Shown in pieces: positions 36,800 to 52,904 of a stretch of DNA of 64,000 bases. Positions within the stretch are counted from its first letter, which is position 1; each line of letters begins with the position of its first letter. The notes beneath the pieces are model-generated. The model made no database searches and was not told where the DNA came from. It was given only the letters and a program-made list of their open reading frames with translations. The DNA comes from Hyphomicrobiales bacterium (GTDB taxonomy: Bacteria; Pseudomonadota; Alphaproteobacteria; Rhizobiales; Rhizobiaceae): assembly GCA_900468535.1 (NCBI GenBank), contig UBTY01000010.1, positions 71,513-135,512 on the forward strand, given 5' to 3'. A program made the translations under genes and the position numbers.

Positions 36800-37714
36800 T
36801 TACGTTTCATGCAAGACATGGGCTGCCTTGACGGCTGCGGAGGCGCGGTTTTCGACGCCGAGTTTGACGTAGATTTGCTCGAGATGCTTGTTCACCGTCC
36901 TTGCCGACAGTCCCAGGATCTCACCGATATCCCGGTTCGCCTTGCCCTTGGCGATCCAGAGCAGCACTTCGGATTCACGCTGCGTCAACGCGAAACTCTG
37001 ACGCAACGTCTCGTCGTCGGAGCGCCGGTTATTCGCTGTCAGCCGGAAAAGATACTCGTCGGGGCCGATCGCGCCGAGAAAGGCAAGACCGAGAACATCC
37101 TTGCCGCCGTGAGAAACCGAGATGGCGCCGTCGGAGGTGGCGGATGCAGAGCGCTTCTTCATCCATTCCGCGATCCGACCGACCACGACATCAAGGCTGT
37201 CGTCACCGCCGAGCGCCGTGTTGATCAGCCTCGTTGCCTGCGGGGTCGACCAGTGGATCTCACCATCGCCTTTCACGGCAAGCAGGTGACGGCCGGCAGC
37301 ATCGAGCGCCACGCGGGCGCTTTGCGCCGAGCGGGCATTGCGCAGATGCACGCCGATGCGCGCGCGCAGTTCGTCGATGTTGATCGGCTTGGTGAGGTAG
37401 TCGACGCCGCCGGATTCCAGCGCATGCACGACATGCTCCGTTTCGGTCAGTCCGGTCATGAAGATGACAGGGATCTGGCTGATCGCCGGGTTCGCCTTCA
37501 GCCTCCGGCAGGTCTCGAAGCCGTCCATTGAAGGCATGATGGCGTCGAGCAGGATCAGGTCCGGCGTGATCCGCTCGACGATCCCGAGAGCTGCAGTGCC
37601 CGAGGTCGCGATCAGCACCGAGAAGCCCGATTGCTCCAGCGCGTCGGTCAGAAACCCCAGCGCTTCCGGTGAGTCATCCACCAGCAGGACGATATCGCGG
37701 GGGAGTTCAGCCAA
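36800..37714 (-). CDS. response regulator with LuxR-type DNA-binding domain
   Basis: 304 residues from a TTG at 37714 that overlaps the 3' end of the kinase gene by 8 bases, so the two are co-translated. The receiver has Asp57 (LILLDAIMPS) and the acidic pair Asp13/Asp14. A middle linker (about 125-225) resembles a sensor-like domain between receiver and DNA-binding domain. The C-terminal GerE helix-turn-helix reads LTQRESEVLLWIAKGKANRD and ILGLSARTVNKHLEQIYVKL. As the kinase partner, it should bind DNA when phosphorylated; the divergent urtA promoter 3.6 kb away is the best candidate target. Confidence 0.85.
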   Translation of the reverse strand: MAELPRDIVLLVDDSPEALGFLTDALEQSGFSVLIATSGTAALGIVERITPDLILLDAIMPSMDGFETCRRLKANPAISQIPVIFMTGLTETEHVVHALESGGVDYLTKPINIDELRARIGVHLRNARSAQSARVALDAAGRHLLAVKGDGEIHWSTPQATRLINTALGGDDSLDVVVGRIAEWMKKRSASATSDGAISVSHGGKDVLGLAFLGAIGPDEYLFRLTANNRRSDDETLRQSFALTQRESEVLLWIAKGKANRDIGEILGLSARTVNKHLEQIYVKLGVENRASAAVKAAHVLHET

Positions 37715-40700
37715 GGGTCTCTACCTTTTCATCGAAGCGGTGCAGAAAGTTTGCGGCGCCGTCGAGGTCGAAGGCGCCGACATAGGAACGGAGCTCGTCG
37801 GTAAATGGCTGATTTGCCTCCGATTTGGCAAGGTCCGTCAGTTTCGCCTCGATGCCCCTGATATAGCCGATCTCAGCAAGGCGCAGCAGTTCCTGCACAT
37901 GCGCGGCGCCGGGGCTGCGCATTTTCCGTTCCGGCTTTGAAACAGGCGGCGGCGTCGGTTCGGCGTAGGTCCACTTCAGCCCGAGATGAAGCGCGAGTTT
38001 GTCTCGAAGCTGTTTGATATCGACCGGCTTGCCGATCGCGTCGTTGTGGCTGTCGTCGCTGTCGACATGGGCGGCGGCATCCCCGATATTGGCGGAGAGC
38101 ATGAGGATCGGTGCCATCTGACCGGCCTCGCGCAGACGCGAAACCAGCTGCCAGCCATTCATGCCGGGCATCAGGATGTCGACGAGGAAAAGATCCGGCT
38201 TGATGCCTTCTATCAGCGTCAGGCAATCGGTTCCTGACGCCGCCGTCAGCACGACGAAATCCAGCGGCGTCAGGATTTCGCGCATCATTTCGCGATGATC
38301 CTCGTTGTCGTCGACGACGACGATGGTGCGGCGTGGGCCATCGTAGCTGACGATCTTCTTTTCCTGTGGGGGCGGATTGATGCTGCGCAAGACAGCCGAG
38401 AGCATCAGGCGCACCTTGAAGGTCGAGCCCTTGTCCTTTTCGCTCGTGACCGCGATTTCGCCGCCGAGCGTGTTGGTCAAAAGCTGCGTGATCGTCAGGC
38501 CAAGGCCGAGGCCCGGCATGGGGCGGATGCTGTCGGCCTCGCCGCGCTGGAACGGTTCGTAAATGCGGCTCAGATCCTTCTCGGCGATGCCGCGACCGGT
38601 GTCCGAGACGGTGAAGGTGGCGACCTGGCTGCGATAGGCGACGTCGAAGGTGACGGTTCCCTCGTCGGTGAACTTGATGGCGTTCGACAACAGGTTGACG
38701 AGGATCTGGCGCAGGCGCTTTTCGTCGGTGCGGACGAACTGGGGCAGGGCGGGGGCGCGCTGGTGCTGGAAGATCAATCCCTTGGCGAGCGCCTGCGGGC
38801 GGAACATGTCGACGATCTGGTCGAGAAAATCCTGAATGTTGATCTCGTTGGAATAGACCTGCAGGCGGCCGGCCTCGATCTTCGAAATATCCAGGAGGCC
38901 GTCGATCAGGCCGGAGAGGTGCTCGGCCGAGCGGCGAATGACCTTGATCGAGGACTGGCGCGGGGTTGGTATGGTGTCGTCGCGCTCGAGGATCTGGGCA
39001 TAGCCAAGGACAGCGTTGAGCGGGGTGCGCAGTTCGTGGCTGAGTCCGACGACGTAGCGGCTCTTGGCGCGGTTGGCGGCCTCGGCGGTTTCCTTGGCCG
39101 TCTGGAGTGCGGCGTCGGTCTTCTTGTGGGCGGCGATTTCCTTGAGCAGAAGCGTATTCTGGCGCGAGGATTCCTCCTCGGCGACGACGCGGCTGTCATG
39201 TGCCAGCACATAAAACCAGCAGACGACGCCGGCGATGACCGCGAAGACGAAGAAGACGATCAGGATGGTGCGGTTGACCACTTCCGCGGTCTCCGGCGAG
39301 GCGGATGCCACCTGATGGGCGATCATTGCGAGAATGGCGCCGACGGCGGTGAGCGCCAGGATTACGGCGATGCCGTAGCGGCCCAGGCGCGTGGTGAGTT
39401 TCTGAACGACCGTCTCCGGCAGGACGGCCTTGGCGACGGTTCCGACCTGCGCGTTGAAGCGGGCCTTCGGCTTGCACATGTCGTGACAGCGGCTGTCGAG
39501 CGAGCAGCAGAGCGAGCAGATCGGCGCGGCATAGGCGGGACACCAGGCCATGTCCTCGGGTTCGAACGGATGTTCGCAGACGGAGCAGGTGATGTTGGTC
39601 AGGTTCTTCCAGCTCTGGCGCGGCTTGCGGGCCAGATAGAACTTCCCTTTCGTGCCCCAGGCGATCAGCGGCGAGGCGATGAGGGCGACGATGAGGGTGA
39701 TATAGGGGGCAAGCGAGGCGGCAATGTCGCCGAAAGCGCCGAAATGGGCGACGAGGGCGATCGTTGCCGACAATGTCATGGCGCCGAGCCCGACGGGATT
39801 GATGTCATAGAGATGGGCGCGCTTGAATTCGATGCCGGGAGGGGCAAGGCCGAGCGGCTTGTTGATGAAGAGGTCGGCGGAGATGGTGCAGAGCCAGGCC
39901 ATCGATATGATCGAGAAGATGCCGAGCGTTTCCTCAAGCAGCTTGTAGATGCCGAGTTCCATCAAGAGCAGGGCGATCGCAACGTTGAAGACGAGCCAGA
40001 TGACCCGGCCGGGATGACTATGGGTGAGCCGGGAGAAGAAGTTCGACCATGCCAGCGAGCCGGCATAGGCGTTCATGACGTTGATCTTCAGCTGCGAGAC
40101 CATGACGAAGGCTGCCATCAGCAAGAGCGCCGCGTTGTGCCAGGGGATCATGTAGCCGAATGCCGTCAGATACATCTGTGCCGGATCGGCGGCGCGGTCG
40201 GCGGGGACGCCTGAGGCGAAGGTCAGCACGACGAGGAAGGAGCCGGCCAGCAGCTTCGGCGCGCCGATGATGACCCAGCCGGGACCAGCCAGGAAGACGG
40301 CGAGGCGGTGGCGCCACTTGGTCTGTTTTTCCGGCGGCAGGAAGCGCAGGAAGTCGGCCTGTTCGCCGATCTGCGACATCAGAGCGAGGATCACGGCGGA
40401 GGCGGCGCCAAACTCGACGAGATCGAAGGGAGCGACGGTGCCTGGCGGGCCCGAGGCGTGGCGGATACCGGCAAAGGCGCGCCAGAGATCGAATTTCTCC
40501 CAGTCCATCACGGCGATGAAGAGGAAGGGCAGGACATTGAGGACGATCCAGAAGGGCTGCGTCAGCAATTGAAACCGGCTGATCAGACGGACGCCGTGCG
40601 TCACCAGAGGGATGACCATGACGGCGCTGATGATATAGCCGATCCAAAGCGGTATCCCGAGCGTCAGCTCGAGCGCGCCTGACATGATCGAGGCCTCGAT

Positions 40701-41093
40701 CGCGAAAAGCATGAAGGTGAAGCTGGCGTAGATCAGGGAGGTAATCGTCGAGCCGATATAGCCGAAGCTGGCGCCACGGGTCAGCAGGTCGATGTCGACG
40801 CCGTGGCGGATCGCATAGCGGCTGATCGGCAGGCCGATGGCGAGCATCGCGATGGAGGCGACGATGATGGCATAGAAGGCGTTGGTGGTGCCGTAGGACA
40901 GCGTGATCGCGCCGCCGATCGCCTCCAGCGCCAGGAAGGAGATGGCACCGATGGCCGTCTGCGAGATGCGCTGCGAGGAGAACTGCCGGGCGCTCTTGGC
41001 GGTGAACCGCAGCGCATAGTCCTCCAGCGTCTGGTTGGCGACCCAGCGATTATACTCGCGCCTGACCGGAATGATGCGTTGCCGCGCTGCCAT
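37707..41093 (-). CDS. NCS1-transporter-fused hybrid sensor histidine kinase
   Basis: 1128 residues. Residues about 1-500 form a 12-segment NCS1-type permease (family of cytosine, allantoin and hydantoin transporters), beginning NRWVANQTLEDYALRFT, with GASFGYIGSTI and QLKINVMNAYAGSLAWSNFF. A cytoplasmic cluster of eight cysteines follows (about 502-542: CSVC, WCP, ICSLCC, RCHDMC). Next come two more membrane helices (about 567-590 and 600-626), a coiled linker, HisKA with His686 in SHELRTP, an HATPase domain (NLLSNAIKF, DTGRGI, GLGLGLTI), a receiver with Asp972 (LFLVDILMPG), and a C-terminal helical tail. It is convergent with nothing and divergent from urtA across 217 bases. Sensing through a transporter domain is known for CbrA-like kinases; the ligand here is inferred to be a nitrogen compound. 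Confidence 0.88.
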   Translation of the reverse strand: MAARQRIIPVRREYNRWVANQTLEDYALRFTAKSARQFSSQRISQTAIGAISFLALEAIGGAITLSYGTTNAFYAIIVASIAMLAIGLPISRYAIRHGVDIDLLTRGASFGYIGSTITSLIYASFTFMLFAIEASIMSGALELTLGIPLWIGYIISAVMVIPLVTHGVRLISRFQLLTQPFWIVLNVLPFLFIAVMDWEKFDLWRAFAGIRHASGPPGTVAPFDLVEFGAASAVILALMSQIGEQADFLRFLPPEKQTKWRHRLAVFLAGPGWVIIGAPKLLAGSFLVVLTFASGVPADRAADPAQMYLTAFGYMIPWHNAALLLMAAFVMVSQLKINVMNAYAGSLAWSNFFSRLTHSHPGRVIWLVFNVAIALLLMELGIYKLLEETLGIFSIISMAWLCTISADLFINKPLGLAPPGIEFKRAHLYDINPVGLGAMTLSATIALVAHFGAFGDIAASLAPYITLIVALIASPLIAWGTKGKFYLARKPRQSWKNLTNITCSVCEHPFEPEDMAWCPAYAAPICSLCCSLDSRCHDMCKPKARFNAQVGTVAKAVLPETVVQKLTTRLGRYGIAVILALTAVGAILAMIAHQVASASPETAEVVNRTILIVFFVFAVIAGVVCWFYVLAHDSRVVAEEESSRQNTLLLKEIAAHKKTDAALQTAKETAEAANRAKSRYVVGLSHELRTPLNAVLGYAQILERDDTIPTPRQSSIKVIRRSAEHLSGLIDGLLDISKIEAGRLQVYSNEINIQDFLDQIVDMFRPQALAKGLIFQHQRAPALPQFVRTDEKRLRQILVNLLSNAIKFTDEGTVTFDVAYRSQVATFTVSDTGRGIAEKDLSRIYEPFQRGEADSIRPMPGLGLGLTITQLLTNTLGGEIAVTSEKDKGSTFKVRLMLSAVLRSINPPPQEKKIVSYDGPRRTIVVVDDNEDHREMMREILTPLDFVVLTAASGTDCLTLIEGIKPDLFLVDILMPGMNGWQLVSRLREAGQMAPILMLSANIGDAAAHVDSDDSHNDAIGKPVDIKQLRDKLALHLGLKWTYAEPTPPPVSKPERKMRSPGAAHVQELLRLAEIGYIRGIEAKLTDLAKSEANQPFTDELRSYVGAFDLDGAANFLHRFDEKVETLG

Positions 41094-41310
41094 GCCTTGG
41101 TGCCAGCCCCTTTGTTCCCCTTGTCATGCGTTCGTAACATGGAACCACGCGAGGCTTAAGAGTGCGGCGCAGCACAAAACTGCACATTTCGCCCCGTCAC
41201 CTACGTCATATCACGTATACGCTTTCGCAGTGCAGCACCGGATAGTCCCTTAAGCAACAGTTAACTTCCGTTTTCGGCCTGTTGTCTAACAAGAAGAGGG
41301 GATCAACCAG
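41094..41310. promoter_or_regulatory. divergent regulatory region between the sensor kinase and urtA
   Basis: 217 bases. It contains the palindrome at 41202-41217 and, further on, a partly symmetric pair TGCAC (41181-41185) and GTGCA (41232-41236). No sigma-54 signature could be placed for urtA. Confidence 0.45.
41202..41217. promoter_or_regulatory. palindrome TACGT-N6-ACGTA, candidate operator
   Basis: A perfect 5-bp inverted repeat with 11-base centre-to-centre spacing, about one helical turn, located 94 bases before urtA and 109 before the kinase gene. LuxR-type regulators bind such dyads. Confidence 0.4.
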
Positions 41311-42603
41311 ATGAATCTCAAGTCCTATATCACGGGCGCCGCACTCGGCGCCGTCATGTCGGCCACGGCCGCATTCCACGGAGCCGTTGCGGCTGACGAC
41401 ACCATCAAGGTCGGCGTTCTGCATTCGCTGTCCGGCACGATGGCGATCTCCGAAACGACGCTGAAAGACGCCATGCTGATGCTCATCGACGAGCAGAACA
41501 AGAAGGGCGGCCTTCTCGGCAAGAAGCTCGAAGCCGTCGTCGTCGACCCGGCGTCCGACTGGCCGCTGTTTGCCGAAAAGGCACGCGAGCTGATCGAAAA
41601 GGACAAGGTCGCGGCCGTCTTCGGTTGCTGGACGTCGTCGTCGCGCAAGTCGGTCCTGCCGGTCTTCGAAGAGCTCAACTCGATCCTGTTCTACCCGGTT
41701 CAGTATGAAGGCGAAGAGTCCTCGCGCAACATCTTCTACACGGGTGCTGCTCCGAACCAGCAGGCGATCCCGGCTGTCGACTACCTGATGGAGAAGGAAG
41801 GCGTTAAGCGCTTCGTGCTCGAAGGCACCGACTACGTCTATCCGCGCACGACGAACAAGATCCTGGAAGCCTATCTCGAGTCCAAGGGCATTCCGAAGGA
41901 AGACATCGTCATCAACTACACGCCGTTCGGCTTCTCCGACTGGCAGACGGAAGTAAAGAAGATCAAGGAATTCGGCGCTGCCGGCAAGAAGACTGCCGTG
42001 GTCTCCACCATCAACGGTGACGCGAACGTTCCGTTCTACAAGGAACTCGGCAACCAGGGCATCAAGGCAACCGACATCCCGGTTGTTGCCTTCTCGGTCG
42101 GCGAAGAAGAGCTTGCAGGTCTCGACACCAAGCCGCTCGTCGGTCACCTCGCTGCCTGGAACTACTTCGAGTCGGTCGAAAGCCCGGCGAACAAGAAGTT
42201 CATCAAGCAGTGGCACGACTTCACCAAGAACGACAAGCGCGTGACCAACGACCCGATGGAAGCTGCCTATATCGGCTTCAACGCCTGGGTTAAGGCTGTT
42301 CAGGCTGCCGGCACGACCGACACGGACAAGGTTCTCGACACGATCATCGGTACCACGGTTCCGAACCTGTCGGGCGGCTATGCGACCGTCATGCCGAACC
42401 ACCACATCACCAAGCCGGTTCTGATCGGTGAAATCCAGGCGAACGGCCAGTTCGAAATCGTGCAGCAGACCCCGGCAGTTGTCGGCGACGAATGGTCCGA
42501 CTTCCTGCCTGACTCCAAGGACCTGATCTCCGATTGGCGCAAGCCCATGAACTGCGGCAACTTCAACGTTGCCACGGGCAAGTGCGGCGGCAAGGGCTCC
42601 TGA
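41311..42603 (+). CDS. urtA: urea ABC transporter substrate-binding protein UrtA
   Basis: 430 residues with a signal peptide of about 28 (cleavage near GAVA/ADD). The urea-type family signature is seen: KVGVLHSLSGTMAISETTLKD, GCWTSSSRKSVLPVFE, LNSILFYPVQYEGEESS and GAAPNQQAIPAVDYLM. It captures urea in the periplasm for UrtBC. Codon use is optimised, as for an abundant protein. A 193-base gap with a hairpin separates it from urtB, which would allow higher expression of the binding protein. Confidence 0.95.
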   Translation: MNLKSYITGAALGAVMSATAAFHGAVAADDTIKVGVLHSLSGTMAISETTLKDAMLMLIDEQNKKGGLLGKKLEAVVVDPASDWPLFAEKARELIEKDKVAAVFGCWTSSSRKSVLPVFEELNSILFYPVQYEGEESSRNIFYTGAAPNQQAIPAVDYLMEKEGVKRFVLEGTDYVYPRTTNKILEAYLESKGIPKEDIVINYTPFGFSDWQTEVKKIKEFGAAGKKTAVVSTINGDANVPFYKELGNQGIKATDIPVVAFSVGEEELAGLDTKPLVGHLAAWNYFESVESPANKKFIKQWHDFTKNDKRVTNDPMEAAYIGFNAWVKAVQAAGTTDTDKVLDTIIGTTVPNLSGGYATVMPNHHITKPVLIGEIQANGQFEIVQQTPAVVGDEWSDFLPDSKDLISDWRKPMNCGNFNVATGKCGGKGS

Positions 42604-42796: not shown

Positions 42797-44416
42797 ATGT
42801 ATCGCGCCATCAAGATTTTGCTTTTGACCCTATGCCTGGCCATGCCGGCCTTTGCGACCGCGCTGAAGGCCCAGGAAGATATTCACCCGCTTATCGACGC
42901 GCTTGGCGTCGGCGATTTCCCCGAGCGCGAAGCCGCGATCAAGGCACTGGTCGCCTCCAAGGATCCGCGCGTCGGCGAGATCCTCAAGCTGCTGAGCGAT
43001 GGCCAGCTTTACGTGAATTCCGAGACCGGCGGTCCGGTGCTGGTGCAGGGCGGCACCGAGGATGAGCCGACCTATGCCGACCCGATTTCCGGCGAGGCCG
43101 TTTCCGACGTCGATCCTGATTACATGTCCAAGGTCAAGATCAACAATTCGCTGCGTACGGTGATTGCCACCGTCACGAGCCAGCTGACGCTCCTGAGCCC
43201 GGATCGTGGTGCGCGGCTTGCTGCAGCTCAGGGACTGCTCAAGGACGCGGATCCGGCAAATCTCGATCTCCTCACCTCGGCGCTGGCTGAAGAAAAGGAC
43301 GCCGAGGTCAAGAATGCGATGGAAGCGGCGCGCGCCGTCATTGTGCTGAAGAGTGATGTCAGCGCCGAAGAGAAGAAGGCCGCGATCGATACGGTCGCTG
43401 CGCGCGGCGGGCGCGATGCGCTGACCATCTTGAATTCCGCGATGGCGACCGCGCCCGAGGAACTGAAGGGCGCTATCCAGACCCATATCAACGCGATCAA
43501 CCGCAGCCTGGCGATTTGGGATGTCGGGCAAAACGTCTGGTACGGGCTGTCACTCGGCTCTGTGCTGCTGCTCGCCGCAATCGGCCTTGCCATCACCTTC
43601 GGCGTCATGGGCGTCATCAACATGGCGCATGGCGAAATGGTGATGATCGGCGCCTACACGACCTACGTCGTGCAGGAGTACATCAGCTCCGCATTTCCGG
43701 AACTTGGAAACTACTCGCTGGCCTTCTCCGTGCCGGCGGCTTTCCTCTTCACCGGCTTCGTCGGTCTTGTCATCGAGCGCGTCGTCATTCGCTATCTCTA
43801 CGGCCGGCCGCTGGAAACGCTGCTCGCCACCTGGGGCGTGTCGCTGATCCTGCAGCAGGCGGTTCGCACGATCTTCGGACCGACGAACCGCGAGGTTCGC
43901 AATCCGAGCTGGATGTCCGGGGCGTTCGAACTCGGCGGTCTCTCGATCACCTGGAACCGCCTCTGGATCATCGTCTTCTCGATGGTGGTGTTCTTTGCGC
44001 TGCTTGCGCTCCTGAAGCGCTCCGCCTTCGGACTGCAGATGCGCGCGGTTACGCAGAACCGCCGCATGGCCTCGTCGATGGGTATCCGCACAGGCTGGGT
44101 CGATGCATTCACCTTCGCGCTCGGCTCAGGCATTGCCGGTATCGCGGGCGTCGCGCTCTCGCAGATTGACAACGTGTCGCCGAACCTTGGCCAGAGCTAC
44201 ATCATCGACAGCTTCATGGTCGTGGTCTTCGGTGGGGTCGGCAATCTCTGGGGCACGCTCGTCGGCGCGCTGTCGCTTGGCGTGCTCAACAAGTTCCTCG
44301 AGCCTTTCGCGGGGGCCGTGCTCGGCAAGATCCTGGTGCTGGTTCTCATCATTCTCTTCATCCAGAAGCGTCCGCGTGGGCTCTTCGCACTCAAAGGAAG
44401 GGCGGTGGAAGCATGA
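42797..44416 (+). CDS. urtB: urea ABC transporter permease UrtB
   Basis: 539 residues. A signal peptide (IKILLLTLCLAMPAFATALKA) and a roughly 210-residue helical periplasmic region with repeated helices (DPRVGEILKLLSDGQL, AEEKDAEVKNAMEAARAVIV) precede the permease domain (about 245-539: VGQNVWYGLSLGSVLLLAAIGLAITFG, VINMAHGEMVMIGAY). The long N-terminal part is normal for proteobacterial UrtB. It forms the channel with UrtC, whose start overlaps by ATGA. Confidence 0.93.
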   Translation: MYRAIKILLLTLCLAMPAFATALKAQEDIHPLIDALGVGDFPEREAAIKALVASKDPRVGEILKLLSDGQLYVNSETGGPVLVQGGTEDEPTYADPISGEAVSDVDPDYMSKVKINNSLRTVIATVTSQLTLLSPDRGARLAAAQGLLKDADPANLDLLTSALAEEKDAEVKNAMEAARAVIVLKSDVSAEEKKAAIDTVAARGGRDALTILNSAMATAPEELKGAIQTHINAINRSLAIWDVGQNVWYGLSLGSVLLLAAIGLAITFGVMGVINMAHGEMVMIGAYTTYVVQEYISSAFPELGNYSLAFSVPAAFLFTGFVGLVIERVVIRYLYGRPLETLLATWGVSLILQQAVRTIFGPTNREVRNPSWMSGAFELGGLSITWNRLWIIVFSMVVFFALLALLKRSAFGLQMRAVTQNRRMASSMGIRTGWVDAFTFALGSGIAGIAGVALSQIDNVSPNLGQSYIIDSFMVVVFGGVGNLWGTLVGALSLGVLNKFLEPFAGAVLGKILVLVLIILFIQKRPRGLFALKGRAVEA

Positions 44417-45576
44417 TTACGGCCTTCCTTCTCCGGTCTCTCGACCGCAAGATCGTCGCTGCGATCGTCATTCTGCTTGCCGTCGCCGTTCTGGTGCCGG
44501 TGCTCAACCTGATGACCGCGCCGACCAATCCGCTGCATGTCCCGACCTACATCATGGCGCTGTTCGGCAAGTATCTGACCTATGCGCTGCTGGCGCTGGC
44601 GCTCGATCTCGTCTGGGGCTTCTGCGGAATCCTTTCGCTCGGCCACGGCGCCTTCTTCGCGCTCGGCGGCTATGCGATGGGCATGTATCTGATGCGCCAG
44701 ATCGGCTCGCGCGGTGTTTATGGCGACCCGATCCTCCCCGATTTCATGGTGTTCCTGAACTGGAAGGAACTGCCGTGGTTCTGGTACGGCTTCGACAAGT
44801 TCTGGTTCGCGGCGCTGATGGTTTTGCTGGTGCCGGGACTGCTGGCCTTCGTCTTCGGCTGGTTCGCCTTCCGCTCGCGCGTCAACGGTGTGTACCTCTC
44901 AATCATCACGCAGGCCATGACCTACGCGCTGCTGCTCGCCTTCTTCCGCAACGACATGGGCTTTGGCGGCAACAACGGCATGACCGACTTCAAGGAAATC
45001 CTCGGCTTCAACGTGCAGGCTGATGGCACACGTGCTGCGCTGTTTGCCGCGACTGCCATCTTCCTTGCCCTGTCGCTTATGATCGCCTCGGCTATCGTCC
45101 GATCGAAATTCGGCAAGGTGCTGGTCGGCGTGCGGGATGCGGAAAGTCGCACGCGCTTCCTCGGCTACCGCGTCGAACACTTCAAGCTCTTCACCTTCGT
45201 CGTCTCCGCGATGATGGCGGGTATTGCAGGCGCGCTCTACGTGCCGCAGGTCGGAATCATCAACCCCGGCGAATTCGCGCCGGCCAACTCGATCGAAGTC
45301 GTCATCTGGACGGCGGTCGGCGGTCGCTCGACGCTGATCGGGCCGATCATCGGGGCCATTCTGGTCAACGGCGGCAAGACGATCTTCACGGGTCTCTTCC
45401 CCGAGTTCTGGCTGTTCGCGCTCGGCGGTCTGTTCGTCCTCGTCACGCTGTTCCTGCCGAAGGGGATCGTCGGGACCATCGGCCAGTATTTCACGCGCCG
45501 GAAGCCGAAGACGGAGGCGACGCCGCCCGCGCTTCAGGAAGAGGGCGTCGATGCAAAAATCCAGCCGGCGGAGTGA
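44413..45576 (+). CDS. urtC: urea ABC transporter permease UrtC
   Basis: 387 residues with about ten membrane segments: ALLALALDLVWGFCGILSLGHGAFFALGGYAMG is recognisable in its core, then the large periplasmic loop DFMVFLNWKELPWFWYGFDK typical of UrtC and the EAA-type loop VLVGVRDAESRTRFLGY. It starts within urtB and is followed by urtD after 6 bases. Confidence 0.94.
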   Translation: MITAFLLRSLDRKIVAAIVILLAVAVLVPVLNLMTAPTNPLHVPTYIMALFGKYLTYALLALALDLVWGFCGILSLGHGAFFALGGYAMGMYLMRQIGSRGVYGDPILPDFMVFLNWKELPWFWYGFDKFWFAALMVLLVPGLLAFVFGWFAFRSRVNGVYLSIITQAMTYALLLAFFRNDMGFGGNNGMTDFKEILGFNVQADGTRAALFAATAIFLALSLMIASAIVRSKFGKVLVGVRDAESRTRFLGYRVEHFKLFTFVVSAMMAGIAGALYVPQVGIINPGEFAPANSIEVVIWTAVGGRSTLIGPIIGAILVNGGKTIFTGLFPEFWLFALGGLFVLVTLFLPKGIVGTIGQYFTRRKPKTEATPPALQEEGVDAKIQPAE

Positions 45577-45582
45577 GCGATC

Positions 45583-46338
45583 ATGATCCCTGACGTCAAG
45601 CCAAACAGCGTTCTCTATCTCAACAACGTCTCGGTTTCCTTCGATGGATTCAAGGCGCTGAACTCGCTGTCGATCGTCATCGAGCCCGGCGAACTTCGGG
45701 CCATCATCGGCCCGAATGGTGCTGGCAAGACGACGATGATGGACATCATCACCGGCAAGACCCGACCGGATGAAGGCGAAGTGTTCTTCAACGGGCAGAC
45801 CGATCTCACCAAGCTCGACGAAGCCGACATCGCCCAGCTCGGGATCGGCCGCAAGTTCCAGAAGCCGACGGTATTCGAAAGCCACACGGTCTGGGACAAC
45901 CTCGAACTCGCCTTGAACCGCAAGCGCGATGTCTTCTCGACGCTGTTCTACCGGCTCTCCGCGGAAGACAAAGCGCGCATCGAGGAGATCCTTGAGACGG
46001 TGCGGCTGACGCATCGGCGCGACGAACTCGCCGCCAACCTCTCGCACGGCCAGAAGCAATGGCTTGAGATCGGCATGCTTCTGGCGCAGGAGCCGAAGCT
46101 GCTGCTGGTCGATGAACCGGTCGCCGGTATGACCGATGCGGAGACGGCGGAGACGGCGATCCTGCTCAAGGAGATCGCCAAGACCCGCTCGGTAGTCGTC
46201 GTCGAGCACGACATGGGCTTCATCCGCGATCTGGGCGTCAAGGTGACGTGCCTTGCCGAAGGTTCGGTGCTGGCCGAGGGATCGATCGATTTCGTGAGCT
46301 CCGATCCGAAGGTGATCGAGAACTATCTGGGGCGCTGA
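45583..46338 (+). CDS. urtD: urea ABC transporter ATPase UrtD
   Basis: 251 residues. Walker A GPNGAGKTT, modified signature LSHGQKQWLEIGM, Walker B LLVDEPVAGM, switch His in VVVEHDMGFI. The GRKFQKPTVFESHTVWDNLELA stretch is typical of UrtD. It drives urea uptake together with UrtE, whose start follows one base after the stop. Confidence 0.94.
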   Translation: MIPDVKPNSVLYLNNVSVSFDGFKALNSLSIVIEPGELRAIIGPNGAGKTTMMDIITGKTRPDEGEVFFNGQTDLTKLDEADIAQLGIGRKFQKPTVFESHTVWDNLELALNRKRDVFSTLFYRLSAEDKARIEEILETVRLTHRRDELAANLSHGQKQWLEIGMLLAQEPKLLLVDEPVAGMTDAETAETAILLKEIAKTRSVVVVEHDMGFIRDLGVKVTCLAEGSVLAEGSIDFVSSDPKVIENYLGR

Positions 46339-46339
46339 G

Positions 46340-47035
46340 ATGCTGACAGTCGAAAATGCAAACCTTCACTATGGCGCGGCACAGGCGTTGCGCGGCATTT
46401 CCATCAAGGCGGAAATGGGCAAGATCACTTGCGTGCTGGGGCGTAACGGCGTGGGCAAGAGTTCTCTTCTCCGCGCCGTTACCGGCCAGCATCCGCTGTC
46501 GGCGGGAACGGTGACGTTCAACGACACCAGGCTCAACGGCCTGCCGCCCTATGCACGCGCCAAGCAGGGCATCGGCTATGTGCCGCAGGGGCGCGAGATT
46601 TTCCCCTTGCTGACGGTCAAGGAAAATCTCGAGACCGGCTTTGCGCCGCTCTCACGCGGTAGCAAGAATATTCCCGATGATATCTTCAGCCTGTTTCCAG
46701 TGTTGCAGACCATGCTTGGACGTCGCGGCGGCGACCTTTCCGGCGGGCAGCAGCAGCAGCTGGCGATCGGCCGGGCGATGGTGACGCGGCCGAAGATCCT
46801 CGTGCTCGACGAGCCGACCGAAGGCATCCAGCCGTCGATCATCAAGGATATCGGCCGGGCGATCCGCTATCTGCGGGATAGCACCGGCATGGCGATCTTG
46901 CTCGTCGAGCAGTATCTCGATTTCTGCCGCGAACTTGCCGACTACGTCTACATCATGGATCGCGGCGAAATCGTGCACGAGGGTCTTGCGGAGACGCTGG
47001 ATACGCCGGAAGCGCGTCGTCATCTGACTGTCTGA
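46340..47035 (+). CDS. urtE: urea ABC transporter ATPase UrtE
   Basis: 231 residues. Walker A GRNGVGKSS, signature LSGGQQQQLAIGRA, Walker B VLDEPTEGIQPSI and a Gln switch in LLVEQYLDF. The N-terminus LTVENANLHYGAAQALRGI is family-typical. Last gene of urtABCDE; a 180-base gap with a sigma-54 type promoter separates it from ureD. Confidence 0.94.
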   Translation: MLTVENANLHYGAAQALRGISIKAEMGKITCVLGRNGVGKSSLLRAVTGQHPLSAGTVTFNDTRLNGLPPYARAKQGIGYVPQGREIFPLLTVKENLETGFAPLSRGSKNIPDDIFSLFPVLQTMLGRRGGDLSGGQQQQLAIGRAMVTRPKILVLDEPTEGIQPSIIKDIGRAIRYLRDSTGMAILLVEQYLDFCRELADYVYIMDRGEIVHEGLAETLDTPEARRHLTV

Positions 47036-47128: not shown

Positions 47129-47144
47129 CGGCACGGGAATTGCT
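47129..47144 (+). promoter_or_regulatory. sigma-54 (RpoN) promoter of the urease operon
   Basis: CGGCACG-N4-TTGCT matches the -24/-12 consensus TGGCACG-N4-TTGCW with one mismatch, keeping the essential GG and GC ten bases apart. The expected start of transcription is near 47155, about 60 bases before ureD. A small inverted repeat CTTGC-N5-GCAAG (47143-47157) overlaps that point. Confidence 0.65.
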
Positions 47145-47215
47145 TGCTTTCTGCAAGTTAGTGACTTCAATGAAAACGGCCGGAACCAACCGGCGGTGCA
47201 TTGGGAAGGGACGGA

Positions 47216-48037
47216 ATGACGAACGCGGCGGCAGCCACGAGACCGCAGAGAGCCGAGGGGCGCGGGCATCTGGCTGCGAAGACGCTCGACGGGCGCACGC
47301 GCCTGCAGGAGCTTTATCAGGAGGGAGCGGCCAAGATCCGGCTTCCGGATACGTTCGATTCCTCCATGGAAGCCGTCATCATCAATACGGCAGGCGGGCT
47401 CACCGGTGGCGACCGGATGAACTGGAGCGTCGCGGCGGCGCCCGGTGCCCGTATCGACGTAACCACACAGGCCTGCGAGAAGATCTACAAGGCATCGGCA
47501 GGAACGGCTGACGTCAACACCAGCATTACCGTCGGCGCGAAAGCGCGGGTGGACTGGTTGCCGCAGGAAACCATTCTCTTCGATCGTTCGTCGCTGTTTC
47601 GTCGGCTCGACGTCGATCTTGATAACGATGCCGAATTCCTGGCGGTCGAGGCCATCCTGCTTGGCCGCAAGGCGATGGGGGAGGCGGTGGATACCGGCCT
47701 CTTTCGCGACCGCTGGCGTATTCGCAAGGGCGGCAGGCTTTGCCACGCCGAGGATTTGCAGCTGCGGGGCAATGTCGCTTCACTTGCCGGCGCCGATGCC
47801 GTGCTGTCAGGCAAGGTTGCGTTTGCGACGCTGCTCTATGTCGGACCGCGGGCCGAAGCCTACCTTGCTGCAGTCCGCCCGTTGCTCGAAGGGCATATGG
47901 GCGGCGCCAGCAGTTGGGCCGGCAAGCTCGTCGTGCGCCTTTCGGCTTCCGATGGCTTTGCGCTCAGAAAAATTCTCATCCCGATCATTTCGACCTTGCG
48001 CAATGGGGCGCCGGTACCGAAAGTCTGGAATCTCTAG
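47216..48037 (+). CDS. ureD: urease accessory protein UreD
   Basis: 273 residues from the ATG at 47216, with GGAAGGGA upstream. UreD (UreH) is the scaffold that binds apo-urease and recruits UreF and UreG for nickel insertion. Family stretches: [20 protein letters not shown] is diagnostic, then [11 protein letters not shown] and [12 protein letters not shown]. First gene of the urease operon, behind the sigma-54 type promoter; ureA follows after 20 bases. Confidence 0.95.
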
Positions 48038-49368: not shown

Positions 49369-50007
49369 GTGACTGACAGGATCATGATCGTCGGCAACGG
49401 AGAGATCGGCGCCAAAGCGGCGGCCGCGGTAGCGGATGCCTCTTTCGTTATCCGCTTCAACGAATGCCGGTCCTATGAGGCAAGCGCGGGCCGCACCGAT
49501 GTCGTCGCGGTCTGCAATACGGGACGGCCGGGCAAGGCAATGGTTGCCTCACAGGCGTGGCGCGAACATCCCGCCGTGCGCGAAGCTGCGGCCATCTGGA
49601 GCGTTCGTGATCCGCGGAAGTTCGCCGAGCTGAAGACGCCGCTCGCCGTATCGCATCCTGAACTCGACGATTTCTGCGACGACTACACGAGTCAATTCAA
49701 TGCGTTCTGCGCGGATACTGGCAAGACGCATGTGGTCGTTGATAAAGCGATTCATGAGGCCGTCGACGCTGCACTCGGTGCCTATCACCCAGCGCCCTAC
49801 GTCGTGCCGAGCAGCGGCATGATCGTTATTGCCGAAGTAATGAACAGATTTCCCGAGGCGGCCATCGATCTTGCGGGCTTCGGCCACGCGGGGTGGGAAT
49901 GGCATCCCTTCGCTGCCGAGCGGCAGCTTGTCGATCTTTATGTCGCCGAGGGCCGCGTTACGCGGCTGCCGGCGAACGCATCCGTTTCTTCCTCCCAAGG
50001 AGCCTGA
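49369..50007 (+). CDS. urease operon accessory protein, GT29 (sialyltransferase)-like
   Basis: 212 residues from a GTG one base after the previous stop. A Rossmann-like N-terminus reads IMIVGNGEIG, followed by FVIRFNECRSYEASAGRTDVV and CNTG. This order (VGNG, then V-R-FN, then GRTD and N-TG) resembles the sialyl motifs of family 29 glycosyltransferases. The C-terminal part has PSSGMIVIAEVMNRFPEA and LAGFGHAGWEWHPF, close to the S and VS motif region. Rhizobial genomes carry this gene within urease operons. Whether it transfers a sugar is unknown; a catalytic His is present in the last motif (GHAGWEWH). Confidence 0.7.
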   Translation: MTDRIMIVGNGEIGAKAAAAVADASFVIRFNECRSYEASAGRTDVVAVCNTGRPGKAMVASQAWREHPAVREAAAIWSVRDPRKFAELKTPLAVSHPELDDFCDDYTSQFNAFCADTGKTHVVVDKAIHEAVDAALGAYHPAPYVVPSSGMIVIAEVMNRFPEAAIDLAGFGHAGWEWHPFAAERQLVDLYVAEGRVTRLPANASVSSSQGA

Positions 50008-50010
50008 CAT

Positions 50011-51723
<1,713 letters not shown>

Positions 51724-52064
51724 ACGCGATCGAAGGCCGGTGCGTTCGCACCGGTCTTCCCACCTGAAATATTAAGCTCGATTTCCACCGTTTGTTTGTC
51801 TGCCAGTCGGATGCGCCACAATGAGGCGGGGCGTCCGGTATGATACATGCCCATCGACCGCCGACGGAAATCGGAATGAAAATCAATGTGTTGGGTTTTT
51901 CAGTTTTTTCTTTGATTCAACCCTGAAATCGTAGCGTTTTTGGGCATTTCCCCGGGCCCTTTCAATTTACCAAATTCATTCGAATCTTAACAATTCACTT
52001 AAGAACCCGGCAGGAATTGGCCTCTATCCAATGTGCTTGGCGCTGGGCAAAAAGGTCGATTCGG
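51724..52064. other. 341-base gap after ureC
   Basis: It holds the hairpin at 51732-51759 and an AT-rich stretch (51870-52005) that probably contains the promoter of the GGDEF gene. No gene is seen. Confidence 0.5.
51732..51759 (+). terminator. hairpin after ureC
   Basis: A 13-bp stem with one G-T pair (51732-51744 with 51747-51759), 8 bases past the stop. No T-run. Confidence 0.6.
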
Positions 52065-52904
52065 ATGAAAATTTCTCTCCAGGCAGAGCTTGGCGATTTT
52101 CAGAATCGCGGCACGATTTACACGTTCGCTCTCAAGATGAGCTTTCTCGCGGTGGCGCTGTCGTCGGCCGTCATCGTTCTCGTTCTGCCGGTTGTCGGCT
52201 GGCTGGGGCTGTTGCCGATTCCGCTCGCGCACGCACTGATTTATGGTGTCGTGTTTTCCTGGCTGATCGGCGGTCTGGTTTCCGGCAGCCTGGCGCTTCT
52301 TGCGGGACATGCCATGCATCAGCTCAGCGTTTCGCGGGCGGAATTCGAGCGGCTCAGCCGGACGGATATGCTGTCAGGGCTCCTCAATCGGCGGGCTTTC
52401 ACGGAGGCGCTGAGCTGCGCTGACGAGGGGGCGTGTCTCGCGATCTTCGACGTCGATCGTTTCAAGGCGATCAACGATCGTTTCGGCCATGCATGTGGCG
52501 ATGCCGTTATCGTTGCGGTTTCCGCCACGCTCGCCACTTCCTTCGGCGGCAGCTCGGTCGCGGCACGTCTTGGAGGGGAGGAGTTCGGCGTCATCGTGGC
52601 CGGCAGCCAGCGGGACGAGCGTATTGCCCGGGTGCGCCTGGTCTGCGCCGAACTTGCGGAACATCCGGTGTGCGCCGAGGGCTGCTCGATCGGCATTACT
52701 GTCTCCGCCGGCATTGCAGAATTTGCGCCCGGTCGCAGCAAGGAGGCCGTTTATTCTTCCGCCGACAAGGCGCTTTATCTCGCCAAGGCGCTGGGGCGTA
52801 ACCGCGTGGTTCACGAGGAGGATGGATTGCAGAGCCGCCTTCGGCATCTGGCCGAAAACGCGGCCGCTGAACCCGATTATCCTACGGCAAAGAGCGCAGG
52901 ATAG
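52065..52904 (+). CDS. membrane-bound GGDEF diguanylate cyclase
   Basis: 279 residues from the ATG at 52065. Two membrane segments (about 24-48 and 53-80) are followed by a GGDEF domain (about 97-250): [35 protein letters not shown] and the active site [12 protein letters not shown]. The GGEEF motif is catalytically competent. The inhibitory RxxD site just before it is missing, so product inhibition is unlikely. It separates ureDABC from ureEFG but has its own upstream region; it is probably an unrelated passenger. Confidence 0.85.

Follow-up and report, generated by a model that had tools for sequence, protein, structure and literature searches.

The kinase-regulator pair and its relatives

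The locus described here lies in a 64,000-nucleotide stretch of a Hyphomicrobiales bacterium genome (contig UBTY01000010.1; the whole stretch is referred to as the window) and comprises a gene for a hybrid sensor kinase of 1128 residues (P0001, positions 37707..41093, minus strand) and a gene for a 304-residue response regulator of the NarL/LuxR type, starting with TTG (36800..37714, minus strand). The coordinates of the two ORFs share 8 bp. The pair is divergent from urtA (41311..42603, plus strand), which encodes the binding protein of a urea ABC transporter (TIGR03407, above the cut-off), with 217 bp between the kinase start codon and the urtA ATG at position 41311. On these points, ORF and Pfam analyses agree with a preliminary description of the locus. 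The sequence alone shows that a transporter-like domain is fused to a kinase, that the kinase and regulator genes form a pair, that the urt-ure genes are divergent from them, and that a conserved palindrome of 16 bp lies 109 bp 5' of urtA.

Pfam analysis of the kinase reports the three signaling domains that had been described: HisKA (residues 677-742, positions 38868..39065, minus strand) with His686 in its H box, HATPase_c (residues 789-898, 38400..38729, minus strand), and a Response_reg receiver with Asp972 (residues 924-1033, 37995..38324, minus strand). The protein is therefore a hybrid histidine kinase by definition, and His686 and Asp972 are invariant in 88 aligned rows. A C-terminal segment without Pfam match (residues 1063-1125, 37719..37907, minus strand) is predicted by AlphaFold2 (AF2) to form four helices. 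The regulator is composed of a Response_reg and a GerE domain according to Pfam, which defines it as a NarL/LuxR-type protein, and its Asp57 is conserved in 63 of the 63 tabulated rows, the window included.

Relatives of the kinase were found 552 times in named genomes, and in all of the best 80, which form the rhizobial set (Rhizobium, Agrobacterium, Ferirhizobium, or "Rhizobiales" records), the kinase-regulator pair is divergent from urtA, as expected from the dedicated link to urea genes that had been proposed. The kinase was also matched in 100 of 100 sampled genomes of the genus (E ≤ 1e-200), two matches being partial and three carrying one internal stop. This arrangement is conserved and not a product of chance.

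To these we added a set of 70 diverse loci, made up of 20 of the 23 matched genomes of one sample (the window's own locus, a partial one, and a weak one being dropped) and 50 of the 71 rows with at least 50% identity of another (from which the window's own locus, 15 rows mostly of genera already present, one partial row, and four already included were dropped). The regulator is detected by BLAST in 67 of these loci. BLAST markers place urea (urt/ure) or formamide/short-chain-amide (fmd/ami) genes near the kinase in 65/70 loci across the phylum: urt in 11, urt and ure in five, ure alone in nine, combinations of fmdD, fmdA, and amiE in 40, and none in five. Neighbors scoring above the cut-off include FmdA (NF045496, formamidase), AmiE (PRK13286, aliphatic amidase), and the TIGR03407 binding protein. 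The FmdDEF-FmdA genes, which we take to form a short-chain amide/formamide system, thus neighbor 40 of the 70 relatives, the window having urtABCDE-ure in their place. The linkage of the kinase is not specific to urea, formamide being at least as common a context. In a held-out set (40 of 54 planned loci, from new genomes, some of genera already in the first set), urea or amide genes lie near the kinase in 34/40 loci, a proportion of at least 80% having been predicted beforehand.

Several genomes hold two copies of the kinase. Six of the seven in which both copies were examined have one beside urea genes and the other beside amide genes (G416, G455, G469, G578, G640, and G969), while both copies of G365 adjoin amide genes. 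The second copy in G740 adjoins fmdD-fmdA, as predicted, but without an exact palindrome. The kinases of loci L198 and L205 are devoid of a receiver, yet still lie beside fmdA; since the neighbors of the former encode an OmpR-type regulator and a receiver-kinase, it is the input module, and not the output, that goes with the pathway there. On the best tree of 78 N-termini, built by a quick method that returned long-branch warnings, the amide and urea labels switch five times, the well-supported branches alone forcing two switches for the amide label and four for the urea label.

Regarding other neighbors, a scan of 113 flanking genes out of 116 picked, with 10 near-duplicate loci set aside, matched 164 Pfam families, the 25 commonest of which include none for purines or pyrimidines. 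At five scanned loci of stand-alone permease relatives, five hydantoinase/oxoprolinase matches were returned. Some kinase relatives bear the JGI name "purine-cytosine permease-like" kinases. One family member without urea or amide neighbors (L206) stands, as judged by eye, beside a ModE-like gene; two adjoining genes of the amino-acid-kinase fold resemble molybdenum-storage proteins by eye, NCBIfam returning only weak kinase-fold matches for them.

The palindrome upstream of urtA

The sequence TACGTCATATCACGTA (positions 41202..41217), 109 bp 5' of the urtA ATG, is the sole exact match of the window to the 16-bp pattern TACGY-N6-RCGTA. Exactly one such palindrome is present between the kinase and urtA in 81 of 81 intervals (the 80 rhizobial loci and the window), always 106-115 bp 5' of urtA. 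This position also holds in the 39 intervals longer than 1 kb (loci L026-L031 and 33 other rhizobial loci), and the site therefore goes with urtA and not with the kinase. As a control, genomes of the same order lacking the kinase were taken from 16 UrtA matches, of which the 12 with 68% identity or more were kept and the four under 45% left out; the palindrome is absent from the 1500 bp 5' of urtA in all 12, two of which have a form with one mismatch.

Beyond the rhizobial set, TACG-N8-CGTA occurs at most 700 bp from the kinase start in 35 of the 70 diverse loci, as compared with a mean of 0.15 loci and a maximum of one in 100 shuffles, while the other half-site spacings (4-7 and 9-13) occur once in all in the same 70 loci. 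When sites before urtA or fmdD are counted as well, the palindrome is found in 40/70 loci; random 700-bp stretches taken elsewhere in these loci contain TACGY-N6-RCGTA in 24 of 2000 cases. The held-out loci have it in 21/40, at least 40% having been predicted. Exact sites near the kinase are distributed as 29/40 in amide contexts, 3/16 with urtA, 0/9 with urease only, and 3/5 in the others. Over 76 distinct sequences, the frequency of the top base averages 0.96 at the ten fixed positions versus 0.75 around them, a difference that arises in part by construction, the alignment being anchored on the pattern.

The site shares with the NarL 7-2-7 site a 16-bp inverted repeat of two heptamers separated by 2 bp, TAC...GTA ends, and an association with a GerE-type regulator, as far as the NarL site is presented in the relevant passages of PMC4549865; its core is TACGYCA, versus TACCCCT in the engineered NarL site of the same source. 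The palindrome is thus predicted to be the operator of the regulator at urtA, and the control of urtA proposed in the preliminary description appears likely, as the operator-like site travels with this gene.

A search for palindromes in the urease-linked loci gave no clear winner. Regulator residues 272 and 275 are not significantly associated with the palindrome over all classes (p 0.60); the group with A272/K275 has it in only 1/7 members, but this group is a single clade. In the urease-linked clade of L185, L189, L201, and L207, near-palindromes of the form TACGCC-N4-GGCGYA or similar are observed, which may represent a variant operator. The regulators of L189, L201, and L207 have A272/K275, and that of L185 has R272/H275.

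Downstream of urtA, the divergent operon continues with urtB (42797..44416, TIGR03409), urtC (44413..45576, TIGR03408), urtD (45583..46338, TIGR03411), and urtE (46340..47035, TIGR03410), followed by the urease genes, all on the plus strand. These four genes and ureC, encoding the urease alpha subunit (50011..51723, plus strand, TIGR01792), score above the NCBIfam cut-offs, which bears out the urt genes and ureC of the urtABCDE-ureDABC assignment made earlier; the gene taken as ureD (47201..48037, plus strand) has no NCBIfam match and owes its name to its position and to that assignment. A 212-residue protein encoded within the urease operon directly 5' of ureC (49369-50007, plus strand) has no Pfam match at E 0.001, and a gene for a GGDEF protein (52017-52904, plus strand) separates ureC from the presumed ureE. 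The sigma-54 promoter ascribed to the urease operon corresponds to a sigma-54-like box with one mismatch (CGGCACGGGAATTGC, 47129-47143, plus strand), 58 bp 5' of the ureD start, but the pattern, with up to two mismatches, is matched 68 times in the window for 68.1 expected, that is, at chance level, and a sigma-54 input to this operon is a candidate only. A sigma-70 scan found no promoter. Elsewhere in the source genome, away from the kinase locus, one FmdA_AmdA-family protein is encoded (a 372-residue frame at G000:C51:5639-6544).

The membrane domain and the cysteine module

The N-terminal 490 residues of the kinase (39624..41093, minus strand) were assigned to a transporter-like domain of the NCS1-like (LeuT) fold by fold comparison. 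Foldseek analysis reports the NCS1 proteins Mhp1 and CodB as the closest solved folds, with 14-18% identity in the alignments, while Nramp, ApcT, DUR3, and SLC5 proteins have the same fold but score below NCS1. In contrast, the NCS1 family PF02133 is matched neither by the full-length kinase nor, even at E 10, by residues 1-546; a PF02133 search of the source genome returned a single gene, different from that of the kinase. Neither Pfam nor NCBIfam gives the N-terminus any transporter family at E 10, the only Pfam match being a RING-like one at E 4.8. The kinase likewise has no Pfam match to PAS, to the SLC5 (SSF) domain, or to STAC, the presence of a STAC model in Pfam being unchecked.

A profile of the sensors alone has no PDB match at E 10, and the best 60 of the 431 matches of a full-length kinase profile are kinases or receivers. 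When seven permease relatives are joined to 15 sensors in a bridging profile, the PDB search returns only CodB (1.1e-12) and Mhp1 (3.6e-6). Among the seven stand-alone permease relatives that were scanned, L209 and L214 match PF02133. Divergent NCS1 permeases thus appear to bridge the sequence gap between the N-terminal domain and NCS1. The earlier assignment of an NCS1-type permease is supported by fold and bridging profile, but not as a domain label that family databases would return.

In the profile alignment, K336 and I337 of the kinase face S312 and T313 of Mhp1, which we take to be the Ser/Thr pair of the Na2 site on transmembrane helix 8. This pair is not kept, K336 being invariant in 70/70 diverse and 40/40 held-out relatives; the lysine speaks against a coupling of transport to Na+ and in favor of a receptor or a Na+-independent transceptor. 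Across 78 rows of the urea and amide groups, 89 positions are invariant, of which the membrane domain holds 75 and the ensuing cysteine module 14; they include E133, Q334, K336, N338, N341, and all eight cysteines. No residue separating urea from amide members was found, the independent switches being too few for a test.

The cysteine cluster (residues 503-540, 39474..39587, minus strand) follows the pattern C-x2-C-x11-C-x7-C-x2-CC-x5-C-x3-C, and its spacing is identical in 70/70 diverse and 40/40 held-out relatives, so that this part of the initial annotation is well borne out. The module is probably a metal site. Confidence at the cysteines of the AF2 model is low (block means 47-78), and we therefore make no claim on their geometry. 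The full-length model (predicted local distance difference test 78.7, predicted template modeling score 0.58) places helices 569-598 and 600-703 between the module and the kinase core; the first of them and the start of the second (residues 569-640, 39174..39389, minus strand) are predicted to form a membrane hairpin entering the kinase helix. Both structure-prediction alignments took 87 of 89 dereplicated homologues.

A candidate sensor of urea and amides

Given that most of the relatives examined have urea or formamide genes as neighbors, the kinase is probably dedicated to sensing these small nitrogen compounds, and we have good confidence that it detects urea in this organism, and formamide or short-chain amides in other branches, to switch on urtABCDE through its NarL-type partner. 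The transporter-like domain would serve as the receptor, with the ligand bound in a LeuT-type pocket between the helices bearing E133, Q334, N338, and N341. Binding may alter the conformation of the membrane domain, a change that could be relayed through the cysteine module and then helices 569-598 and 600-703 to His686. From there, the phosphate would pass via receiver Asp972, directly to regulator Asp57, or both. The phosphorylated regulator would occupy TACGY-N6-RCGTA as a dimer in the 7-2-7 arrangement, presumably turning on urtA and probably also the operon that encodes it. More tentatively, with doubt slightly outweighing belief, we propose a new class of transceptor in which an NCS1-fold domain has lost sodium coupling (K336), binds urea or formamide, and signals through an eight-cysteine metal module.

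Ammonia is released by both the urea and the amide pathways, and the kinase might instead respond to a common product or to nitrogen status (ammonium, bicarbonate, or low nitrogen), its fold being a transporter relic. The lack of residues distinguishing urea from amide members would fit such a signal, and an ammonium-sensing Amt-kinase is known, as the passages of PMC5764959 that concern it indicate. However, one copy per pathway, as found in six of the seven two-copy genomes, would be needless under a common signal, and the source genome has few sites, only three of its 20 exact TACG-N8-CGTA places fitting TACGY-N6-RCGTA; we regard this explanation as unlikely. Alternatively, the cysteine cluster (metal, redox, or iron-sulfur) could be the main input and the membrane domain only an anchor. 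Its cysteines and spacing are invariant in all 110 loci, its 38 residues hold 14 of the 89 invariant positions and are, per residue, more conserved than the membrane domain, and urease-linked genes could be gated by nickel or redox. But the 75 invariant positions of the membrane domain are beyond the need of an anchor, and the same cluster is present at formamidase loci, making this too an improbable account. The weakest proposal, that of the preliminary description, is that a product of purine, pyrimidine, or hydantoin breakdown is sensed or transported by the permease domain, which would then turn on the use of urea, with which that route ends: NCS1 proteins of solved structure do carry cytosine and hydantoin, and hydantoinase/oxoprolinase or 5-oxoprolinase-type genes are found close to some of the stand-alone permease relatives, but the family kinases lie near urea or amide genes instead (65/70 and 34/40 loci), the commonest flanking families, a sample only, include none of purine or pyrimidine metabolism, and to our knowledge formamidase and aliphatic amidase are not part of a purine route, which leaves it very improbable. 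The homologues are indeed linked to urea genes, as that description implied, but equally or more often to formamide/amide genes.

Compared with the preferred sensor of urea and amides, the solved permeases Mhp1 and CodB, although nearest in fold, differ in that the kinase lacks a PF02133 match, has a lysine at the Na2 position, and is a fusion. Among signaling proteins, SLC5 domains also adopt a LeuT-type fold. The SLC5/STAC transceptor kinases CbrA, CrbS, and RpuS share the N-terminal fusion of a transporter to a kinase, as far as the passages on them indicate (PMC13022988, PMC5715377, PMC9100948, and the review PMC7918813), and CrbS has a LuxR-family partner with an inverted repeat at -52 to -36, according to passages among the first three of these sources. 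Unlike them, the window kinase has an input nearest to NCS1, an eight-cysteine module and a predicted membrane hairpin preceding the kinase, no Pfam STAC or PAS match, and urea/amide genes as putative targets. In Ks-Amt5, an ammonium transporter joined to a histidine kinase, a transporter module has likewise been recruited to sense a small nitrogen compound, but Amt is joined directly to the kinase, and the passages of PMC5764959 mention no NCS1-like domain or cysteine cluster. GrtK/GrtR was rejected as a match, since the corresponding passages of PMC12918730 describe a kinase of 427 residues and six helices whose partner is of the Fis type.

The genes have appeared in print: a table for Dechloromonas places a 1131-residue kinase and a 308-residue receiver protein beside UrtA (PMC2907700), and PMC13296017 notes a urt operon with a kinase-regulator pair and, adjacent in numbering, an fmdA, the linkage being unanalyzed in both as far as their passages show. 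No paper describing this kinase system was found in searches of open-license papers, judged by their titles and abstracts, in line with the earlier view that an NCS1-fused kinase of urea use is undescribed.

In soil and fertilizer, urea is among the main sources of nitrogen, and general nitrogen control is the usual explanation for how its uptake and urease are regulated. If the more tentative transceptor reading is correct, these bacteria would possess a dedicated urea receptor that moved several times between the control of amide genes and that of urea genes within one phylum while keeping one shared operator code. SLC5 and Amt would thereby be joined by another transporter fold turned into a kinase input. 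The natural pairs of urea and amide copies would be useful for mapping specificity, and a widespread, sequence-defined candidate receptor with a predicted operator allows tests of whether urea and formamide are sensed directly.

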